This document shows positions 5,450 through 59,474 of a stretch of 64,000 nucleotides of DNA, piece by piece. Made by a program: the position numbers and the translations under genes. The notes under the pieces were generated by a model that did no database searches, was not told the origin of the DNA, and worked only from the letters and a program-made list of their open reading frames with translations. How positions within the stretch are numbered: the stretch's first letter is position 1; each line of letters starts with the position of its first letter. This DNA comes from a virus, in IMG/VR virus record IMGVR_UViG_3300019093_001485, positions 1 to 64,000 of that record. One strand, given 5' to 3'.

Positions 5450-5919
5450 GACGCCCCCCTCAAACACATCGCCCGCTCCCCTGCCCTGCGCTTGACGAGG
5501 CCGGGGAGTTCTTTGCCGCCTGCCATGGTCCAGCGAGGCAACTCATTGCATGCACCGACCATATCGCCCGAATTTGCTTTTTTTGCCAGGGTGGACGAGC
5601 AGAATTTTTCGCCGCCGACGTTAAAGGCAAAGGACAGAAAGGCGGCTTTCTGGCCGTCTGTCATGGGCTTTTTAATGCAGGCCAGGTCGTTTGCGTGCTT
5701 GAGCAGATCTGTTTCAAGCATTTGCTGGCACTGGGCTGGGGTGAAGGTTTGGCCCATTTTTAGCTCTGGGCCTGTATGGCCATTGCAGGCGGTGATGATG
5801 CCGATGGGGTCTTTGTATGTTTTAAAGACCGAGCCTTCAGACATGATGACAAATGGCACGACCAGGGCGGCTGCGCCTGCCCCGATCTTGAGGGCTAGTT
5901 TGCTTTGTGTTTGGCTCAT
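5446..5919 (-). CDS. SAR endolysin, glycoside hydrolase 24 lysozyme
   Basis: A 157-residue lysozyme with the GH24 catalytic triad spaced E-8-D-5-T (E28, D37, T43) in SEGSVFKTYKDPIGIITACNG. The N terminus (about residues 8-26) is hydrophobic but rich in Gly and Ala, as in signal-arrest-release endolysins, which are exported by Sec, held in the membrane and released when the membrane is depolarised. It cleaves peptidoglycan glycan strands. It overlaps both the holin-like gene and Rz by four bases, so the lysis genes are translationally coupled. Confidence 0.9.
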   Translation of the reverse strand: MSQTQSKLALKIGAGAAALVVPFVIMSEGSVFKTYKDPIGIITACNGHTGPELKMGQTFTPAQCQQMLETDLLKHANDLACIKKPMTDGQKAAFLSFAFNVGGEKFCSSTLAKKANSGDMVGACNELPRWTMAGGKELPGLVKRRAGERAMCLRGAS

Positions 5920-44642: not shown

Positions 44643-44657
44643 ATCATTTTAAGTGAT
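44643..44657 (+). promoter_or_regulatory. Repeat ATCAYTTTAARTGAT, start-proximal copy
   Basis: ATCATTTTAAGTGAT, five bases before the likely ATG of the response regulator. With the copy at 44504 it is a good candidate for autoregulation by the LuxR-type response regulator or by the HTH protein. Confidence 0.6.
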
Positions 44658-44661
44658 ATTC

Positions 44662-45309
44662 ATGTCCCTACCCGCGATTACCCTCGTTACGGCAGATGAT
44701 CAGCATATGTTGCTTGCGCTGTATCAGTACTATGCAGAAGAGCATGGCATGACTGTGATAGAGGAATGCAAAACTCCAGAGCAAGCAATTGAGTCATATT
44801 CAAAGCATCAGCCCCAGGTCATTTTGCTTGATATTCGATTTGGTACTGATATGTCTGGCTTTGATATTGCAAGAGAGATTCTGAAAAAACATCCAAATGC
44901 GAATATCGTTTTCATCAGTCAATATGACCAGGCATCGTATATAGGCGAAGCTTATCGCGTCGGGGCAAAGGCCTTTTTAACAAAGAATTGTGATGCAGAT
45001 ACTTTTAAAAAAGCCATTCAGGCTGCTAGCAAAGGCGAAAAATTCTTTATGCCTGAACTACTGGAAAAAGCTGTTCAACTGGTGACCAATCCGGAAATGA
45101 ACCCGAAGCTAGTTTTGCAAGAAAAGAATCTATTCGAAGTATTTATACTGCTTGCCGAAGGCCTGACGAACGAAGAGATTGCCGAAAAGCTTGGTGTGGA
45201 TAAACGTACCGTATCACTCAATCGACAAAAAATTCAAGACAGATTGAATATTAGTAGGCTGCAGGAATACACAAGAATGGCAATCGCCCATGGCCTGATG
45301 GAGCCTTGA
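44662..45309 (+). CDS. NarL/FixJ-family response regulator
   Basis: A 215-residue response regulator: receiver domain with acidic pair D12-D13, phospho-acceptor D57 in VILLDIRFG, S86 and K108 (FLTKN), then a LuxR-type HTH (AEGLTNEEIAEKLGVDKRTV). All key residues are present. The kinase gene follows 19 bases later and a degenerate GGDEF protein after it, forming one operon. It should bind DNA when phosphorylated. The operon is AT-richer than the phage genes and lies inside the immunity region. Confidence 0.9.
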   Translation: MSLPAITLVTADDQHMLLALYQYYAEEHGMTVIEECKTPEQAIESYSKHQPQVILLDIRFGTDMSGFDIAREILKKHPNANIVFISQYDQASYIGEAYRVGAKAFLTKNCDADTFKKAIQAASKGEKFFMPELLEKAVQLVTNPEMNPKLVLQEKNLFEVFILLAEGLTNEEIAEKLGVDKRTVSLNRQKIQDRLNISRLQEYTRMAIAHGLMEP

Positions 45310-45328
45310 GGCCCATTAAACATATTCA

Positions 45329-46786
45329 ATGATAGACCTACACAAGATAATTCCTCTTCGATGGTTTTTTCCATTGATTGCAGTGCTGCCGGTTTTTATC
45401 GTCGCCTGCCTGGCCGGCGTATTTCTTGATGTAAGTATTTCAAACCAGCTAGACAATCAGTTAGAAAATAATTTGCGCGGACTCGGTGAAAACATTTCAA
45501 ATTCTTCAGAATTTGCATTGCAGACCCAAAATACATCAGAACTCAAAAAAGTAATTTGTGCAAGCTTGTATCTATCAGCTGAAATCAATGAGATTGAGAT
45601 TTTAGATGACAGTTCTGTAAAGTTAGACGATTGCCGCCGGATGGTTAAAATTGAAGGTGACTCAATAGCAGTGACCCTTCCAATTCACCCACTAAACAGG
45701 GATCAAGTTAAATCTACGAGCAAAAATATTGTCATTGGATATGTACGAATAACCGCAGCAAAATCCGTCGTCGAAAATGAAAAACGACTGATCAGGTGGG
45801 TATTATTCCTGGTTCTGACTTTTGCTGTACTACTCACACTTTTATTCTCTTATTTTTTCACAAAAAAATTAGCTTTTGCAGTAATCGAGTTATCACAGGC
45901 GTCAAAAAGTATTACGGAAAAAAATTTCCAAATCGAATTTTCGAAAATGCTTGGTGGCGAAGTAGGTCAAATGCAAAAGTCATTTTTGGAAATGTCGAGG
46001 ACTATGTCCGACTTTACAAAACACCTGAACAATAATGTGGAAGCCAGAACCAAAGAACTTGATACCCAGAAAAATTTGCTAGAAAAAGCCTATACAGAAA
46101 ACAAAAGATTAATTCATCGCATCAACACTGCGATTGAGAATGAACGCAGATTGATTGCTCTTGATTTACACGATGTATTTAATACAGTCATCTTGCACAT
46201 CTTAGGGACTGCGCGCCAGACAAAGTCAATGCTGCATAAAGTCGCCCAACAGGTAGACGTTTCAGGCGCGCAGTCGAATTTAGTAGCCATTGAACACAAT
46301 GCCAATCACCTGTACGCCTTGTCTAAAGATTTGGTTTCGAATCTAAGACCGGAAGTGCTTGACGAGTTCGGCCTGGCAGAGGCCTTGCAGGATTTAGTAA
46401 CCAAACACGGGAATTCGCATGCCGATTGCCAATACTCTTTGAAACTCAATGGTCAAATTCCCCGGTTTGATTACGATTTCAATATTGCCATATTCAGGAT
46501 TGTTCAAGAATCACTATCGAATGTCGCCAAACATGCAAACGCGACCCAATGCAAGATCACTTTAACTGTTATTGATAAGATTAATCATTGTCGCATCGTA
46601 TTAAGCATTATTGACGACGGCAACGGATTTGATATGCGAAACCGTAAGCAAGGCTTTGGCCTGGACGGTATGCGTGAAAGAGCTGGAGGCATTGGCGGCA
46701 CCATCGAAGTTTCGGCTGCACCAGGTGCAAGTACTAATATCTTGCTTTGCGTAGACAAATATATTCAATCTAAAACAGAAATATAG
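45329..46786 (+). CDS. NarX/UhpB-type sensor histidine kinase
   Basis: A 485-residue membrane kinase: a membrane helix (12-33), a periplasmic sensor domain to about 155 with three cysteines, a second helix (156-178), a HAMP-like linker, coiled coil, then HisKA_3 with phospho-acceptor H281 in ALDLHDVFN, and an HATPase domain (RIVQESLSNVAKHAN, IIDDGNGFD, GFGLDGMRERA). It should phosphorylate the response regulator in answer to an envelope signal. The sensor domain is unassigned. Confidence 0.9.
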   Translation: MIDLHKIIPLRWFFPLIAVLPVFIVACLAGVFLDVSISNQLDNQLENNLRGLGENISNSSEFALQTQNTSELKKVICASLYLSAEINEIEILDDSSVKLDDCRRMVKIEGDSIAVTLPIHPLNRDQVKSTSKNIVIGYVRITAAKSVVENEKRLIRWVLFLVLTFAVLLTLLFSYFFTKKLAFAVIELSQASKSITEKNFQIEFSKMLGGEVGQMQKSFLEMSRTMSDFTKHLNNNVEARTKELDTQKNLLEKAYTENKRLIHRINTAIENERRLIALDLHDVFNTVILHILGTARQTKSMLHKVAQQVDVSGAQSNLVAIEHNANHLYALSKDLVSNLRPEVLDEFGLAEALQDLVTKHGNSHADCQYSLKLNGQIPRFDYDFNIAIFRIVQESLSNVAKHANATQCKITLTVIDKINHCRIVLSIIDDGNGFDMRNRKQGFGLDGMRERAGGIGGTIEVSAAPGASTNILLCVDKYIQSKTEI

Positions 46787-48541
46787 ATGAATAATATCTA
46801 TAAATATATATTCGCTACCATTGCGTTGATTGGACTCGTGAATCTAATTACGCCTTACGTTCTTGCATCTGAGCGGACGCAAGAAAATAGGGTCGACAGT
46901 CTTATACGCCAGCAGTCCTACAACTTCCGATTTAGCTTTGATAAAAGCGATTCAACACTGATTGAACTAAAAAAATTGGAGCCTTTTTTTACGAAAAAGC
47001 AAAAAGATCTTGTATATCTTATGCATGCAGCCGTCCTGGGCTTCCAAGGGAAACATACGGAACGTACGGCACTAGTGAATGGATATCTTACGCAAGTTAC
47101 CGATGCCGACATGAGAGCTAGATTTCTTGACCAACTAATAGGAGCATATTCGAACCTTGGCGAATATGAAAAAGCAATCTTATCAATGAACGAAGCCACA
47201 GCGCTACTACCAGCTTTAAGGACACGTGAGGGAATAAGCGCCACTTTACAGGGGGCAGTCAATCTACTGCGTACACTAAAAGAATATGACGAAGCTTTGG
47301 TTTATGCAAACAGGATGTTAGAGCTCAAACCAAATCCCGATCGCCCTTCAGAGCGGTGCTTGGGCATTTTGAATACCGTTGAACTGAATTACATACGTGG
47401 TGATGTACAACATGCAAGATCACTCATTCCCGAATCAGATGCAACTTGCAAGGTTGGCGGAAATAGACTCTACGTTCAAATTTTGCAAGCAATGTCTGTG
47501 ATAGACCTAATAAATTCTGGCAATTATCAAAAGGGTATAAATCAAGGCGTCCCTTTGGCAGCAGATTTCGAAAATCTTAATCATCGTAATGAGTATAGGA
47601 TGCGACTTGAAGAGGCTTTGGCAAAAGCTTTTATGTCTTCAAATGATCTAAAGTCGGCATCAAAATTCGGGTTACTAGCTTTTGATCATGCTAAAGAAGC
47701 AAAAGCAGTCGAGCAGGTTGAATCTGCAGCCGAGACCATGGCAAAAGTGCACGAGCGCCAGGGAGACAATCCAAACGCGTTAGCATTCTTAAAGATTGCG
47801 TTTGAGTATCGAAAAAAACGAACAGACGATGACCTTCTAAAAAACCTCGCTTACCAACGCGTTAAATTCAATTTGCGCGAAAAAGCGATGCAATTAAGTG
47901 CATTGGAGAATAAAAACCAAGTATTGCGCATTGAGCAGGAACTCGAAAAGAAAAACACACAAACAATATTCTGGGTTGCAGTTTTTTCCGCGACTGTGAT
48001 GATCATCCTGTTGGTAATGTTGATATTTTTCATAAAGCAAAGGAAGAAATATTTAAGGTTAGTGCAGATTGACCAACTAACAAATATTTTTGATCGGACA
48101 TTTTTTATATCCCGTGCCTCCGAGAAAATTGCAGGTCGTCTAGCACCTATCTCTATTGTTCTGCTAAATCTTGACCGATTCAGGAAAATCAACGCTGCGT
48201 ACGGTTTCTCCATGGGAGATCACATACTCGTTGAAGTATGTTCAAAAATTAAGACTCTATTAACAGTCGATGACCTTTTTGGAAGAATGCAGGGCGATGA
48301 ATTCGCAATATGCATGGTCGGTCCCACTGAAGAATTAGCCAGGCATTTAGCTGAGAAATGTCGCCTGGCCATTTTAGAATTGAATATAGATAAGTTGACG
48401 CCAGACCATAAACTGACTGCTAGCATCGGTGTGGCGACAATTGATACAAAAGGACTGACAAATTTCGAAGATACCCTCAATGCAGCGCGCGACTCCCTAC
48501 TTCTTTCAAAAAGTTTAGGCGGTAATTGCGTCAACGGTTAG
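46787..48541 (+). CDS. TPR-like sensor with degenerate GGDEF domain
   Basis: A 584-residue membrane protein: N-terminal signal anchor, a TPR-like helical periplasmic region (about 35-360), coiled coil, membrane helix (about 398-420) and a C-terminal GGDEF domain. In that domain the metal-binding D-x-D reads LLNLDRF (first D to N), the ND..GH site reads INAAYGF (D to A), and GGDEF reads QGDEF. Catalysis is therefore doubtful; it may bind GTP or c-di-GMP or act as a scaffold. ATG follows the kinase stop directly, so it is coupled. Confidence 0.85.
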   Translation: MNNIYKYIFATIALIGLVNLITPYVLASERTQENRVDSLIRQQSYNFRFSFDKSDSTLIELKKLEPFFTKKQKDLVYLMHAAVLGFQGKHTERTALVNGYLTQVTDADMRARFLDQLIGAYSNLGEYEKAILSMNEATALLPALRTREGISATLQGAVNLLRTLKEYDEALVYANRMLELKPNPDRPSERCLGILNTVELNYIRGDVQHARSLIPESDATCKVGGNRLYVQILQAMSVIDLINSGNYQKGINQGVPLAADFENLNHRNEYRMRLEEALAKAFMSSNDLKSASKFGLLAFDHAKEAKAVEQVESAAETMAKVHERQGDNPNALAFLKIAFEYRKKRTDDDLLKNLAYQRVKFNLREKAMQLSALENKNQVLRIEQELEKKNTQTIFWVAVFSATVMIILLVMLIFFIKQRKKYLRLVQIDQLTNIFDRTFFISRASEKIAGRLAPISIVLLNLDRFRKINAAYGFSMGDHILVEVCSKIKTLLTVDDLFGRMQGDEFAICMVGPTEELARHLAEKCRLAILELNIDKLTPDHKLTASIGVATIDTKGLTNFEDTLNAARDSLLLSKSLGGNCVNG

Positions 48542-49982: not shown

Positions 49983-50222
49983 AGATTTAACCTCTCAGAA
50001 AACTTCATGTTTTCAACAATCACCCCAAAACCCTTGGCACCAGTAGCACTTAGGCCAGTTCATCTACTTTAGCTATTTCCCTGATTTTCATTTGCGACAA
50101 ATTACGCTCTGATTTTACGCCCCTTCCCTTTTTTAGCCTTCGCGATCGTGGCCTCAGCTTCGCTTTGATACGCACATGCTGCACTGCACAATCGAAAAGA
50201 TAAATAAAATTCAAAATTTAGA
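49983..50222. other. Intergenic stretch before the rightward operators
   Basis: About 240 bases, AT-rich near its right end. A minus-strand frame ending CAYQSEAEATIAKAKKGKGR could encode a short zinc-type tail but has no convincing start. Nothing else is recognisable. Confidence 0.4.
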
Positions 50223-50262
50223 TAAAGCACTGCTTTACTTTAATAAAGCTTTGCTTTATTAT
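50223..50262 (+). promoter_or_regulatory. Rightward early promoter with two operators
   Basis: TTTACT (50234-50239), 17 bases, TATTAT (50257-50262). The first operator TAAAGCA-C-TGCTTTA (50223-50237) touches the -35; the second, ATAAAGC-TTT-GCTTTAT with further paired bases outside (50241-50261), fills the spacer and -10. The arms match the operator at 43239, so the same repressor should control both early operons. Confidence 0.8.
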
Positions 50263-50298: not shown

Positions 50299-50514
50299 AT
50301 GATCACACAAACACCTTTCAACTTGCCAACAGGCCACTTTGCCCAACCAGCAGTTGCATCGAACGCCCTGGTCATCAACGGCCAAAACCTGATTGATGCT
50401 TTTGCTGATTGTGACATGGAACAGTGCGACAAGTTGGCCTCGTTGCTGGCAAGCGGTCGTCATGAGCAAGTAGGCCGAATGCTGGAAGCGATTTTCTACA
50501 AATGGGCCGAATGA
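50299..50514 (+). CDS. Small protein, first gene of the rightward early operon
   Basis: A 71-residue acidic protein starting MITQTPFNLPTGHFAQPAV, AGGAG five bases from the ATG. No domain is recognised. Its position right after the operators suggests an immediate-early role. Confidence 0.65.
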   Translation: MITQTPFNLPTGHFAQPAVASNALVINGQNLIDAFADCDMEQCDKLASLLASGRHEQVGRMLEAIFYKWAE

Positions 50515-51571
50515 TTTTCTGATACCCCGAAAAGTCCTGGTGATGGCGAACAAAAGACCACCGGACAGAATAGGCAAGTACCTGGCAGCTCGGAACTAGA
50601 CGGGCAACGAATTAAAGATTGGTCGCTGGCACCAAGTTTCAAGCCAGCAGGGAAATCTGGGTGCCTGAATGACCTGGCCTCTGTATCGGGTGATGCCTCT
50701 AGTCTTGAGTTGGGACGGACAGTCGGGAAAGACCGACAAAGAATTGCAGTAGAGAAGATTGCAAGACTGGCTGAATCGTGACGTCAAGTAGCGCTGTACT
50801 GCGCGAAAACCTATGAACGAAAGATGCCATGAGCAAGCCGAGGACGGAAGGCACTGCCGTGACAGCCTGGAGAGACAGGCATCAAAACAAAACCGGCTTC
50901 ACCCGCCTTGGCCAGCGGAGCTCCCGATGTACGAGGCCGGTTCTGTTTTGAGTTTGACTCGCCTGCAGTGTGTTTCTCACCCACCCTGCCGCCTTCCGTG
51001 GTCGATAAATCGGACTGGTAACTCTCTGCCAGCGAAGTTCTAAAAGAGGGCACCACACAAAACCAGCGGCTAAACGAAGACCATGGCGCGCCTCCGATGG
51101 TCGGATACCGGAGAAAGACCGGGCCGCTGGTTCTGTGTGGTGAATACCAAAAGGACGCACCCCGAGAGGGCGCTCTGCAAAGCATCGCAGGAATCTGCTT
51201 AGCCTGTTAATCATGATCGGGTTTTGCGGTAGCCCAGATAGAAATCTGAAGGAAGCATGATTAACCTTCGGCACCTGTCGATAAGTCCGTCGCCGCAGAC
51301 GGTAATCGCGACTGCTGGGACGAGAGTAACCCAGCGCCAACAGGAAAGAGGGGGCACTGCAAAACGGTCTTCCCGAGCACACGTAGTACCGAACGACCGA
51401 GAGGGTGTGCTAACGACGGGTGAATTCCTCTTTTTCCTGTTGGTAAATGCATGATTGGATCTGGACGGTTCGAACCCGTACCCGAAACTCCCAGAGTAGT
51501 CGAGCTGGCATAGTCGAAAAATAGTGAAGATAGCCCATTTGCCAACACCTAATTTAACCAGGAGATCAGCA
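50515..51571 (+). ncRNA. Hairpin-dense 1-kb noncoding region, large structured RNA candidate
   Basis: No credible protein is encoded here; the open frames on both strands are Arg/Ser/Pro-rich and overlap. On the + strand I count many stems: 50534-50566, 50625-50648, GTCGG-GAAAGA-CCGAC (50722-50737), GCCTG-GAGAGA-CAGGC (50865-50880), 50883-50950 (15 pairs, one mismatch), 51051-51142 (20 pairs, one mismatch) enclosing two more hairpins, 51206-51265 (10 perfect pairs), 51287-51302, 51314-51335, 51337-51443 (15 pairs with a bulge), and CGGTC/GACCG that could form a pseudoknot. A T-loop-like arm, ACGG-TTCGAAC-CCGT, lies at 51466-51480. Size and form recall ornate large phage RNAs such as GOLLD or ROOL. 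Confidence 0.6.
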
Positions 51572-51961
51572 ATGAATGCAGCAGATCAGTTTGAAGCACC
51601 AAAACACACGCCGGGACCGTGGGAAGCGATTGGCAATTTGGTTCGCTCCCCTATGGTTCACCCGCAGGGTACTGATAGGCCGCGAGGAATCATGCTTGCG
51701 GAATGCGCAGATGGATACGGCGTCAAGGCAAACAGCGCTGAAGCCGCCGCAAATGCCAGGCTCTTCGCTGCGGCACCTGATTTGCTGGCCGAGTTGGTCA
51801 TGGCTGGCCAGGTCATCAGCGTGCTGCTGAACGAGTTGACTGTCGAGCAAAAGCGCAACTGTGCAGCAAAAATCGACGCATTGGGCATACACGGCGAAGG
51901 CATGATCAGGGCAAATGAGCGTGATGCAGTCATGAAAAAGGCCACGGGAGCACCAACATGA
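51572..51961 (+). CDS. Conserved phage protein
   Basis: A 129-residue protein starting MNAADQFEAPKHTPGPWEAI with AGGAG upstream. The segment NARLFAAAPDLLAELV is typical of phage proteins of this type. The function is not known. The frame is open upstream but the ribosome site points to ATG 51572. Confidence 0.65.
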   Translation: MNAADQFEAPKHTPGPWEAIGNLVRSPMVHPQGTDRPRGIMLAECADGYGVKANSAEAAANARLFAAAPDLLAELVMAGQVISVLLNELTVEQKRNCAAKIDALGIHGEGMIRANERDAVMKKATGAPT

Positions 51962-52173: not shown

Positions 52174-53148
52174 ATGAGTACAGCAGTCGCAACAAAGACA
52201 CCAGCAGCAAACTTGATGCAGTTTATGGAGAAACATAAGCAGCAAGTCGCCCTTGCCTTGCCAAAGCATATTACTGCTGATCGTATGGTTCGCCTGGCTA
52301 TGACTTCATTCAGCCAAAACAAGGCGCTGCAAAACTGCGAAATGAATAGCATTTTTGCTTCAGTCATCATTGCTTCACAGCTCGGTCTTGAGATTGGTGT
52401 GGGCGGACAGGGCTATCTTGTTCCATACAAGGGCAAATGCACGTTCGTGCCTGGCTGGCAGGGCTTGGTTGATCTGGTATCTCGCGCTGGTCGTGCCACA
52501 GTTTGGACTGGCGCGGTGTATCGCGGCGATAAATTCGATTGGGCACTTGGTGACAATCCATTCGTAAAACATCAACCAGAGGGCGACGCAGACGATTGGC
52601 GCGACATCTCGCATGTGTATGCCATAGGTCGCGTGAATGGCAGCCAATACCCTGTTATCGAAGTCTGGACGATGGATCGCGTTGTTCGCCACCTCAACAA
52701 ATACAACAAGGTAGGCACCAGCCACTATGCCCTTACGAACGATGGCGCAAATATGGAGATGTACGCCCGCAAGGTCGCCCTGCTCCAGGTCTTGAAGTAC
52801 ATGCCAAAGTCAATCGAAGTACAGAAAGCCATGGACGTGGCCCACGCAGTCGATTCCGGCAAAAACTTCACGATGGAAGGCGATATCGTTATTGTTCAGG
52901 ACGAGCCAGAAGATCAGGCAGCAGTGCCCCAAAGCGTTGATATGCCGCGCTCACGAAGCGAACAAGCAGCCGCCCAAGCTGACCCAGCCGCGCCACTGAC
53001 CGCTACGCAAATTGACTTCGTTAAGAACAAGATGGAGCTGGATGCCCTTGGCAGTGCTGACCTGTTCCGAAAGTTCGGCAAGAAATTAGAAGACTTCACT
53101 CAAGCTGAATTTGAAACTGTTCTGGCCTGGGTAAAGAACCCTGACTAA
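52174..53148 (+). CDS. RecT single-strand annealing protein
   Basis: A 324-residue RecT-family protein: LALPKHITADRMVRLAMTSF, CEMNSIFASVIIASQLGLEI, GYLVPYKGKCTFVPGWQG and EMYARKVALLQVLKYMPKS are its core motifs. It anneals complementary strands during phage recombination and replication. The RecB-like nuclease gene follows by three bases, the normal exonuclease/annealase pair. Confidence 0.92.
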   Translation: MSTAVATKTPAANLMQFMEKHKQQVALALPKHITADRMVRLAMTSFSQNKALQNCEMNSIFASVIIASQLGLEIGVGGQGYLVPYKGKCTFVPGWQGLVDLVSRAGRATVWTGAVYRGDKFDWALGDNPFVKHQPEGDADDWRDISHVYAIGRVNGSQYPVIEVWTMDRVVRHLNKYNKVGTSHYALTNDGANMEMYARKVALLQVLKYMPKSIEVQKAMDVAHAVDSGKNFTMEGDIVIVQDEPEDQAAVPQSVDMPRSRSEQAAAQADPAAPLTATQIDFVKNKMELDALGSADLFRKFGKKLEDFTQAEFETVLAWVKNPD

Positions 53149-53150
53149 TC

Positions 53151-53729
53151 ATGCTGACGTTCGATGAATCAACACACACATATAGATGGCACGGCGTTGT
53201 TGAGCCTGGTGTGACCTCAATACTTTCGCCTCTAATCGACTATTCGATGGTCAAGCCAGAAGTCCTTGAACGCGGGCAAAAGTTGGGGACTGCTGTTCAT
53301 CGAATGACAGAACTGTATGACCTTGACGACCTCGACGAATCATCTTTGTCGCCGGTGATGGTTAACTACCTTGAAGGCTGGAAGCGATTCAAGGAAGACA
53401 CAGGATTCGTTCCGGCGACGATCGAGCATCGAATGTATCACCCAAAGCACCACTACTGTGGAACGTCCGACAGGACAGGCGTAATCAAGAAGCACAAGGC
53501 TGTTGTTGACATAAAGAAGATGCTCACTCTGGGGCCTGTTATCGGCATACAGCTTGCCGCTTACCAGGCAACGCACAACCTGGAGGGCTCGGGAATCACC
53601 CACCGGTACGCCCTCGGGCTCCGGCCAGACGGTACATACAGGTTAGAGCCATTTATTAACCCAGGTGACTTTGCAGTGTTTTTGTCACTTCTCACTATCA
53701 AGAACTGGAAAGCGCAACATGGAAACTGA
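53151..53729 (+). CDS. PD-(D/E)XK nuclease, RecB/Cas4-like exonuclease
   Basis: A 192-residue protein with GTAVHRMTELYDLDD (motif with histidine), CGTSDRTGVI (catalytic aspartate) and VVDIKK (D-x-K). This is the RecB-type nuclease layout that makes the 3' single-stranded ends used by RecT. It is smaller than most phage YqaJ or lambda exonucleases but complete in motifs. Confidence 0.8.
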   Translation: MLTFDESTHTYRWHGVVEPGVTSILSPLIDYSMVKPEVLERGQKLGTAVHRMTELYDLDDLDESSLSPVMVNYLEGWKRFKEDTGFVPATIEHRMYHPKHHYCGTSDRTGVIKKHKAVVDIKKMLTLGPVIGIQLAAYQATHNLEGSGITHRYALGLRPDGTYRLEPFINPGDFAVFLSLLTIKNWKAQHGN

Positions 53730-57373: not shown

Positions 57374-57675
57374 GAGCAATTACATTCCGCCAAAGCAACG
57401 TAGAAGCGCCTTTACCAAAACCTTGTTTTCACCTGGCGTCTGAATTTGCAACACCAAACGCGCAAAACAACCAGATCAACAAGGTTATCAAGGCTGCAGG
57501 CGTGAAAAACGATGCAGGTCTGGCTCGGCTGCTGGAAGTCGCACCGCCAGTAATTAGCAAGATCCGCCACAACCGTTTGCCGGTAGGCGCAACGTTGGCT
57601 ATAGCGATCACAGAAGAAACTGACCTGTCTATTACTGATATCAAAGCCATTTTGGAAGGCCAGGTGGCTGCATGA
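57370..57675 (+). CDS. HTH regulator
   Basis: A 101-residue protein. The HTH lies at KNDAGLARLLEVAPPVISKI, with NRLPVGATLAIAITEETDLS after it, similar to phage Cro-like regulators. It overlaps the methyltransferase gene by four bases, suggesting control of that gene or of the operon. Confidence 0.65.
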   Translation: MRAITFRQSNVEAPLPKPCFHLASEFATPNAQNNQINKVIKAAGVKNDAGLARLLEVAPPVISKIRHNRLPVGATLAIAITEETDLSITDIKAILEGQVAA

Positions 57676-59474
57676 TCATCGAGAAAGATATCAGGCATTT
57701 CCACTTTTGCTGTGGCCTCGGGGGCGGCAAGAAGGGATTCAACAAAGCCAAGCCGCGCGTGGGCAACATGGTTGGCAAGTTGCGCTGCATCGGAGGCGTG
57801 GACGTTGACCCTGCAGCCATTCGCGATTTTGACAAAATGGGCGATGGCAGACCAGGCACGGTTATGGACCTGTTCACCCGTGGCCAGTATACCGCCTTCC
57901 ATAGCAAGCAACCTCCTGGCGAATGGCAAGAAGTCACGCCTGCAGATATACGCCGCGCGGCTGGCAATGAAAGCCCGAACATTGTTTTCATTTCTAGCCC
58001 ATGCAAAGGTGCGTCCGGTCTGTTGAGCGAAAAACTCAGCCAAACGGCAAAGTACCAGGCATTGAACGAACTGACGCTGCGCTGCATCTGGCTCATGGCA
58101 GAGGCCTGGCAGGATGACCCAGTCGAGCTGATTGTATTCGAGAACGTACCGCGTCTGGCTACCCGTGGCCGCCACCTGCTCGACCAGATCAACCAGTTGC
58201 TTAACCGCTACGGCTATGCAGTTGCCGAGACAACCCACGACTGCGGCGAACTCGGTGGCCTGGCTCAATCACGCAAGCGATTCTTACTGGTGGCCCGCCA
58301 CATGGAAAAAGTACCGCCGTTCTTGTATGAACCAGAGAAAAAGCGCCTAGCTGCTGTCGGTGACGTTCTTGGCCGCATGCCCATGCCAGGTGATCTGACT
58401 GGCGGGCCAATGCACCGCATCCCTCGACTGCAGTGGAAAACATGGGTGCGCCTGGCATTTGTTGAAGCTGGCTCAGACTGGCGCAGCTTGAACAAGTTGG
58501 CCGTGAACAATGGGCACCTGAGCGATTACCTGATTGTGCCTGAGTATCGCTCTGGATACCTTGGCGTACAAAACTGGTCTGATACTTCGGGCACGGTCTG
58601 CGGGAAATCAAATGCGACAAATGGCGCGTTCTCAATTGCTGACCCTCGGATGGTGACCACTGCCGAATACAGCCAGTACGGTGTGCTGCCATGGACAGAC
58701 TCAACAGGCGTTATCAGCGCTCAATCCGCCCCTGGTGGAGGCAAGTACTCGGTTGCAGACCCGCGCATGCTGGATAGCAGCCATCACAACAACTGTTTCA
58801 GAGTTGTTGCCTGGGACGGCCATGCTGGCACCGTCACTTCTGGCCATGGCCCAAGCAGTGGCGGCGGATGCGTAGCAGACCCGCGTCGTGCTGGTCCTTC
58901 ATTTGGCAAATACGCCGTGACCAAATTTGACGAGCCTGCCGGTACCGTGATCGCAGGCAGCACGACTGGCCAAGGTGCATTTGCAGTGGCCGACCCACGC
59001 ACAAGCATGAATCGCAAGTCAGGCGATGCGTACCTGACGGGCGGTCATTACGGTGTAGTGCCATGGGATGCTGCCTGCGGAGCTGTTAGCGCATCGGCTG
59101 GCCTGGACAATGGCCGCTGGTCGGTCGCCGATCCTCGTATCGCTACCCTGCCCGCCATGGATGAAAAGACGATTGCCATCATTCAGTCTTTGGATGGCAC
59201 TTGGCACCGCCCATTTACAACGCTGGAACTGGCCGCACTGCAAAGCCTGGTCGAGCCAGAGGAATACTTGGAGCTGGACGGCCTATCTGATAGTGCTTGG
59301 CGCGAGCGTATCGGGAATGCGGTGCCACCTGCAGCAGCAGAAGCAATCGCCGAAGTCATGGGCACAACTCTACTACTGGCCTGGTCAGGAGAAACGTTCG
59401 TACTGTCGGCAATGCCTATCTGGGTGAAACCGGTGGCGGTTGCTCTGTCGGTTGCGCAAGGGGAAGCAGCGTAA
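57672..59474 (+). CDS. C5 cytosine DNA methyltransferase with internal repeats
   Basis: A 600-residue Dcm-type enzyme. Motif I FHFCCGLGGGKKGF; motif IV SSPCKGAS with catalytic C111; motif VI FENVP; motif VIII QSRKRF; motif X GNAVPP near the C terminus. Between motifs VIII and X lie about five repeats of 40-50 residues, each ending with V/I-ADPR (SIADPRM, SVADPRM, CVADPRR, AVADPRT, SVADPRI). They occupy the target-recognition region. It likely protects phage DNA from host enzymes. The recognition sequence is unknown. Confidence 0.85.
   Translation: MIIEKDIRHFHFCCGLGGGKKGFNKAKPRVGNMVGKLRCIGGVDVDPAAIRDFDKMGDGRPGTVMDLFTRGQYTAFHSKQPPGEWQEVTPADIRRAAGNESPNIVFISSPCKGASGLLSEKLSQTAKYQALNELTLRCIWLMAEAWQDDPVELIVFENVPRLATRGRHLLDQINQLLNRYGYAVAETTHDCGELGGLAQSRKRFLLVARHMEKVPPFLYEPEKKRLAAVGDVLGRMPMPGDLTGGPMHRIPRLQWKTWVRLAFVEAGSDWRSLNKLAVNNGHLSDYLIVPEYRSGYLGVQNWSDTSGTVCGKSNATNGAFSIADPRMVTTAEYSQYGVLPWTDSTGVISAQSAPGGGKYSVADPRMLDSSHHNNCFRVVAWDGHAGTVTSGHGPSSGGGCVADPRRAGPSFGKYAVTKFDEPAGTVIAGSTTGQGAFAVADPRTSMNRKSGDAYLTGGHYGVVPWDAACGAVSASAGLDNGRWSVADPRIATLPAMDEKTIAIIQSLDGTWHRPFTTLELAALQSLVEPEEYLELDGLSDSAWRERIGNAVPPAAAEAIAEVMGTTLLLAWSGETFVLSAMPIWVKPVAVALSVAQGEAA

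Follow-up and report, generated by a model that had tools for sequence, protein, structure and literature searches.

A hairpin-dense noncoding gap ahead of recT in a temperate phage points to an RNA built from exchangeable modules

In the window, i.e. the whole 64-kb stretch of phage DNA analyzed here (part of an IMG/VR virus record with a length of 64,915 bases), positions 50515-51571 form an ORF-poor gap that is hairpin-dense on the sense strand and flanked by ORFs of 71 and 129 amino acids. What does such a gap encode? The initial annotation had argued that it holds no credible protein and instead a candidate for a large structured phage RNA. As to the protein, no tested ORF gave a match, in agreement with this claim: the antisense ORF of 166 amino acids (50882-51382) had none in PHROGs or Pfam and lies largely inside a block that is missing from relatives, and the 124-amino-acid ORF had none in PHROGs, the only collection searched with it. 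The gap is surrounded by what resembles an early operon with operator control, and recT lies downstream. Specifically, a repeat search identified two 16-bp palindromic operator-like repeats (ATAAAGCACTGCTTTA and ATAAAGCTTTGCTTTA) at 50222-50262 on the + strand, and these overlap a promoter-like TTTACT-17-TATTAT (50234-50262; 9 of 12 matches, from a promoter scan in which the number of sites in the window was barely above chance). We infer that this is an early promoter region with its operators. It is followed on the same strand by the first ORF of the operon (50299-50514; 71 amino acids, no assigned function, conserved in the related contigs L027 and L061), the gap, a phrog_1273 gene without assigned function (51572-51961; 129 amino acids, PHROGs), the ribosome-binding site of which comes immediately 3' of the RNA, a gene for a RecT-like annealing protein (52174-53148; family match) and an exonuclease gene (53151-53729). 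Because the palindromes and the promoter-like site lie upstream of the first ORF, the gap is seemingly part of an early operon under operator control. The phage is temperate, and its closest relative is an Undibacterium prophage. Elsewhere in the window, Pfam matches identify a response regulator, a histidine kinase and a TPR-GGDEF protein in a row (44653-48541), representing either host flank or a signalling operon carried by the phage, and a C-5 cytosine DNA methylase of 600 amino acids with repeated VADPR-like motifs (57672-59474).

With respect to structure, none of 20 shuffles folds as well as the whole region (z -3.95), and z < -2 was reached by half of the 150-nt + strand segments within the gap versus 10% elsewhere in the window; the antisense strand of the gap also scores somewhat, as long hairpins do. 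An inverted-repeat search and inspection of the sequence located the long stems where the initial annotation had placed them, with inverted repeats at 50882-50900/50933-50951 (19 nt, 89%), 51051-51070/51123-51142 (20 nt, 95%) and 51337-51353/51427-51443 (17 nt, 88%) and a 10-bp stem, read from the sequence, at 51206-51215/51256-51265. The recurrence of GAAAGA and GAGAGA hexaloops that had been pointed out was borne out as well: only two hairpins with a perfect 5-bp stem and a GARAGA loop are present on both strands of the 64 kb, versus about 0.06 expected by simple letter counting, and both of them, HL1 and HL2, lie on the + strand of the gap.

Comparison with relatives divides the RNA into parts, all on the + strand. 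Over 8 kb, L027 and an Undibacterium umbellatum contig (L044) are identical; E. coli genomes gave no match to the window region. Three parts are common to the versions in the window, L027 and L061. The first is a 5' domain (50613-50737), which includes a stem at 50625-50630/50643-50648 whose strands changed in a compensatory manner (GCTGGC/GCCAGC versus GCCGCC/GGCGGC) and ends with HL1 (GTCGG-GAAAGA-CCGAC, 50722-50737). The second is the long arm 2b (50882-50951) of about 18 pairs with one A.C mismatch, in which two pair changes in L061 are compensatory. The third is a 3' domain (51438-51547), with a sequence that is highly conserved in both relatives up to the start codon, the last ~75 nt before this codon being nearly identical in the three versions. 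A block of extra modules of 487 nt (50951-51437) is absent from L027 and L061; L061 also lacks roughly 50741-50861, so that HL1 is joined directly to arm 2b. The RNA versions are thus about 1040, 460 and 310 nt in the window, L027 and L061, respectively, and the joints between modules fall at hairpin ends. The extra block comprises the long arm M3 (51051-51142; 19 of 20 pairs, followed by GTGTGGTGAATACC), stem M4 (51206-51265; 10 perfect pairs with an inner CAGAT-AGAA-ATCTG hairpin), for which we found no homologue, and much of module M5 (51331-51450). Arms 2b and M3 are paralogues and differ by one compensatory change (CCGGC/GCCGG versus CCAGC/GCTGG). On the level of aligned sequences, these comparisons show predicted helices conserved with compensatory changes and modules gained or lost at hairpin ends. 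The idea of a structured noncoding phage RNA is, therefore, supported by homologues with covarying helices, but a single large RNA of fixed architecture does not agree with lengths of ~310, 460 and 1040 nt or with the occurrence of single modules in tRNA arrays.

Module M5, which has an outer arm formed by the 51337-51353/51427-51443 repeat and an inner stem at 51376-51382/51405-51411, extends this picture beyond close relatives. Unannotated gaps in two unrelated phages are 81% identical to it: in Aeromonas phage ST4 the match lies ~430 nt upstream of three tRNA genes, and in the IMG/VR contig L063, from an uncultured phage, it precedes tRNA-Phe and tRNA-Gly. Although ST4 differs at most pairs of the inner 7-bp stem, every pair is retained in all three sequences (AGCACAC/GTGTGCT in the window, GTTGCGC/GCGCAAC and GGCACGC/GCGTGCC in the two relatives), and two pairs of the outer arm are compensated in L063. 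By the same comparison, a pseudoknot between CGGTC and GACCG that had been suggested is not conserved, as ST4 breaks one of its five pairs and L063 two. In a T-loop-like arm that had also been described, the ACGG/CCGT stem is retained, whereas the loop is not conserved and reads CTAGTAC or CTAGTTC in relatives. The gap in ST4 is itself a mosaic, other pieces of which match unannotated gaps of unrelated Aeromonas phages, in settings that include a position upstream of terminase, the inside of a large tRNA array and a short Plateaulakevirus intergenic stretch. We conclude from these matches that the same putative modules are reused in unrelated phages, plasmids and tRNA arrays. Of note, three Aeromonas temperate phages (L004 2736-3430, L005 2641-3305 and L008 2726-3670) have noncoding gaps of 650-950 nt upstream of terminase that end in terminator-like hairpins and have common motifs including GTGGTGAATGCGCAGGCTGATG and GTCGAACGATAGCGCGACGAGCACACA.

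The conserved 3' end raises the possibility that the region is a cis-regulatory leader of the gene at 51572. UGUUGGUAAAU (51438-51448) is complementary over 11 bp to AUUUGCCAACA (51537-51547), and its first 6 nt may alternatively pair with CCAACA (51337-51342) of arm M5; such a leader would switch between pairing with M5 and pairing just before the ribosome-binding site. The near identity of the last ~75 nt and the presence of both pairing partners are in line with this proposal, as is the finding that L023, an enterobacterial phage, and ST4 exceed shuffles in similar shared strands (the count being reached by 2 of 200 and 7 of 200 shuffles, respectively). However, in the same test the window has no excess of mutually exclusive pairings, and the same modules occur without the 51572 gene in tRNA arrays and other phages. 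We consider a leader function improbable.

The part with the widest distribution is element B (50835-50882, + strand), which reads GCC-GAGGACGGAAGG-N4-GCCGTGACA-GCCTG-GAGAGA-CAGGC and contains HL2 (50865-50880). B is a near-invariant 49-nt element that is absent from the Rfam catalogue and recurs across widely differing bacteria, in their phages, plasmids and tRNA gene clusters. Positions 50830-50874 have 91% identity to an inter-tRNA spacer of an Acetobacter plasmid. Exact long patterns for B and M5 matched zero viral contigs and looser ones succeeded, the core pattern of B matching 29 viral contigs and a stricter pattern five genome contigs (two from Acetobacter and one each from Pleomorphomonas, Undibacterium and Cupriavidus). 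Letters within a search pattern are invariant by construction; the loop was left unspecified, and the hexaloop is GARAGW in 27 of 27 distinct loci. When the leading GAGG was dropped in a second pattern, only two loci were gained, and 22 of the 24 loci recovered have GAGG anyway. A model, R1, built from 20 sequences with that of the window among them, matches 50835-50882 (70.8 bits, E 9e-19) and identifies 36 loci at E < 1e-5; the window carries the family pattern GCC-GAGGACGGAAGG-N-GCCGTGAC together with the covarying GARAGA hairpin. In total, B is present in about 35 loci (phages, prophages or plasmids), which belong to alpha-, beta- and gammaproteobacteria and to a probable actinobacteriophage (L018). 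Because L018 is closest to an Actinoplanes phage, through one protein that is 68% identical, B probably spans phyla. In a draw of 295 genomes from the host family, the already known carrier was the sole one with B, which identifies B as an accessory element.

The hairpin of B covaries. Both-side changes are found at five of five pairs on an alignment fitted to the structure (A4) and at four of five on an unfitted one (A1), 98.7% of cells in A4 are paired versus 87.6% in shuffles, the covariation score was reached by 0 of 500 shuffles, and controls with slid positions collapse. Helix 1 of B is invariant and, for this reason, without covariation support. Around B, about 13 of 30 distinct loci have same-strand tRNAs within a few hundred bases, and the density of extra hexaloop hairpins within 1.5 kb exceeds that in the remaining sequence about 20-fold, with none antisense. 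A long arm immediately following B reaches significance in 10 of 34 loci only. A conserved outer stem enclosing B was also considered and holds for some loci only (GTGT/ACAC in L015, L023, L026, L034 and L041); a GCACG/CGTGC stem is present in L013. As additional observations on these surroundings, a tRNA array with B on an Acetobacter plasmid (L003 6560-8000) is directly followed by a long CRISPR array, on an A. persici plasmid (L012) type I-E cas genes come next, and two matches to Y RNA-like YrlA below the cut-off (L013 1185-1288 and 341-461) adjoin tRNAs and B.

A short two-hairpin element in an untranslated early phage transcript is reminiscent of the putRNAs of HK022, ~70-nt two-stem elements near the early promoters that act independently of protein to suppress intrinsic and rho-dependent termination (PMC9378689). 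B and related junctions could, accordingly, be put-like cis antiterminators that load onto RNA polymerase and allow read-through of tRNA arrays and leaders. B has a similar size and is in sense orientation within transcripts that are probably untranslated (those of early operons and tRNA arrays), and its invariance would be accounted for if the partner were as conserved as RNA polymerase. Its position relative to the promoter differs, however: the distance from the promoter to B is ~570 nt in the window, and B within tRNA arrays usually comes after a tRNA. In addition, R1 has no match in 20 kb of HK022 containing its early genes, and antitermination would not require a 1-kb chain of modules. 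Antitermination is, therefore, in our opinion a minority explanation, to which we assign a low probability.

We also asked how the region relates to known RNAs. GOLLD and ROOL are large, helix-rich RNAs of phages and prophages that are often near tRNA islands and whose function is unknown (PMC12286853), and a likeness in style to them had been noted. Part of this likeness holds, in that the RNA is phage-borne, has many helices and in relatives is accompanied by tRNAs; near the gap of the window there is no tRNA, and only a distant tRNA-Gly exceeded the Rfam cut-off. With Rfam 15 no family was matched convincingly by the gap, neither GOLLD nor ROOL nor any other. At E <= 10, the GOLLD profile (RF02032) matched neither the window record nor five related records, with controls matched only below the cut-off; the ROOL profile (RF03087) gave no match at this threshold either and none in control genomes. 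GOLLD and ROOL have a characteristic architecture and form nanocages, whereas the RNA described here gains or loses whole modules, some of which are reused singly, and ranges in length between ~310 and ~1040 nt. A diverged GOLLD or ROOL would fit the size, the phage origin and the tRNA neighbourhood of the relatives, but in view of the absent profile matches and the variable length we regard it as very improbable. We class the RNA as a large structured phage RNA apart from GOLLD, ROOL and STnc100. An ORF-less origin of 1 kb is also known for the most abundant transcript of phage ICP1, which is ~800 nt long (PMC7567579); its sequence has no resemblance by eye.

In relatives, Rfam identifies STnc100, DicF, isrK, C4, RprA and YrlA-like RNAs. 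STnc100 (RF02076) is a prophage sRNA that has been detected by Northern blot (PMC5331693) and is related to the sRNA PasD (PMC13192938). It scores above the cut-off in 4 of 13 records searched and has no match in the window record; in the three enterobacterial relatives L023, L034 and L041 it lies beside B; the records behind L023 and L034 have further copies in tandem, and in these two phages STnc100 and DicF-like matches come after B. STnc100 is a multihelix domain with a terminal hairpin flush with its own closing strand (CCGGGAGGCACCCGG-CACCA). The strands that follow arms M3 and M5 in the window are similar to the 5' side of STnc100 (GGTGAAT), the loop of which is GAGGCA versus GARAGA in the window and in element B. 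We found no report of STnc100 within 1-kb chains of modules. The genomic context is also shared: in E. coli prophage L058 the order is HTH gene, ORF, gap, Rha, kil and exonuclease, and the gap contains DicF along with a weak match to STnc100, suggesting that lambdoid phages use this position to house structured RNAs. A similar position, between the first ORF and the recombination genes, is occupied by DicF and further sRNAs from the early operons of lambdoid prophages, and the gap in the window precedes recombination genes in an apparent early operon. In L041, an RprA-like sRNA (5645-5761; 66 bits, cut-off 70) with a terminator-like hairpin at its end starts a largely noncoding stretch of 1.6 kb with STnc100-like domains, element B and tRNA-Met.

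The region might accordingly be a cluster of separate base-pairing sRNAs cut from the early transcript, like DicF and STnc100 of lambdoid prophages. The shared place in the operon, the STnc100 and DicF-like matches after B and the status of STnc100 as a prophage sRNA speak for such a cluster; against it, the window has no match to STnc100 or DicF, the conserved parts are structured junctions and arms rather than single-stranded seeds, and terminators for each module are absent. On balance, we see this explanation as a serious but less likely alternative, about on a par with antitermination.

Our working model, in which we have middling confidence, is that the gap specifies an RNA of exchangeable modules that belongs to a new phage family and is probably a stable trans-acting RNA or RNP. 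The repeated unit would consist of a small junction element, either B or a simpler version, whose hairpin carries a GARAGA hexaloop, and of a long helical arm after it. Upon derepression, the operon transcript would include the gap stretch, which would fold, be cut out or persist as a stable RNA, and act in trans as a scaffold or RNP. A partner that is conserved among hosts would dock at the near-invariant B and the hexaloops, and STnc100, found beside B in the three enterobacterial phages, may be a further module of the same kind. We favor a trans-acting RNA or RNP because the modules keep their structure in an early operon, a late leader, a tRNA array and a plasmid, and because B hardly changes. 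Two points weigh against it: the swapping of modules fits separate small RNAs or cis elements equally well, and a stable RNA should have its own ends, yet no terminator-like site was found on the + strand within or after the gap. Slightly more tentatively, we suggest that such RNAs form an uncatalogued superfamily resembling a construction kit, in which B and hexaloop joints, swappable arms, tRNAs and STnc100-like domains would be combined into RNAs of about 110 nt to >1 kb in phages of Proteobacteria and Actinomycetota, and which would bind a conserved cellular machine.

We found no description of element B or of the modular arrangement in the open-access literature or Rfam 15, an absence that is no proof of novelty. 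GOLLD and ROOL are among the most puzzling RNAs known, and the RNAs described here would add a further, unrelated and apparently modular group. Their short, almost unchanging core can be tested on its own; because this core is present in a sequenced Undibacterium prophage (L044) and in Acetobacter plasmids, its expression and partner binding are directly measurable. Finally, we note that the most conserved part of B, CGAGGACGGAAGGC (50839-50852), has a near-perfect complement, GCCTTCCGTGGTCG, 140 nt downstream (50991-51004) in the block missing from relatives, and this complement could mask B in this phage only.
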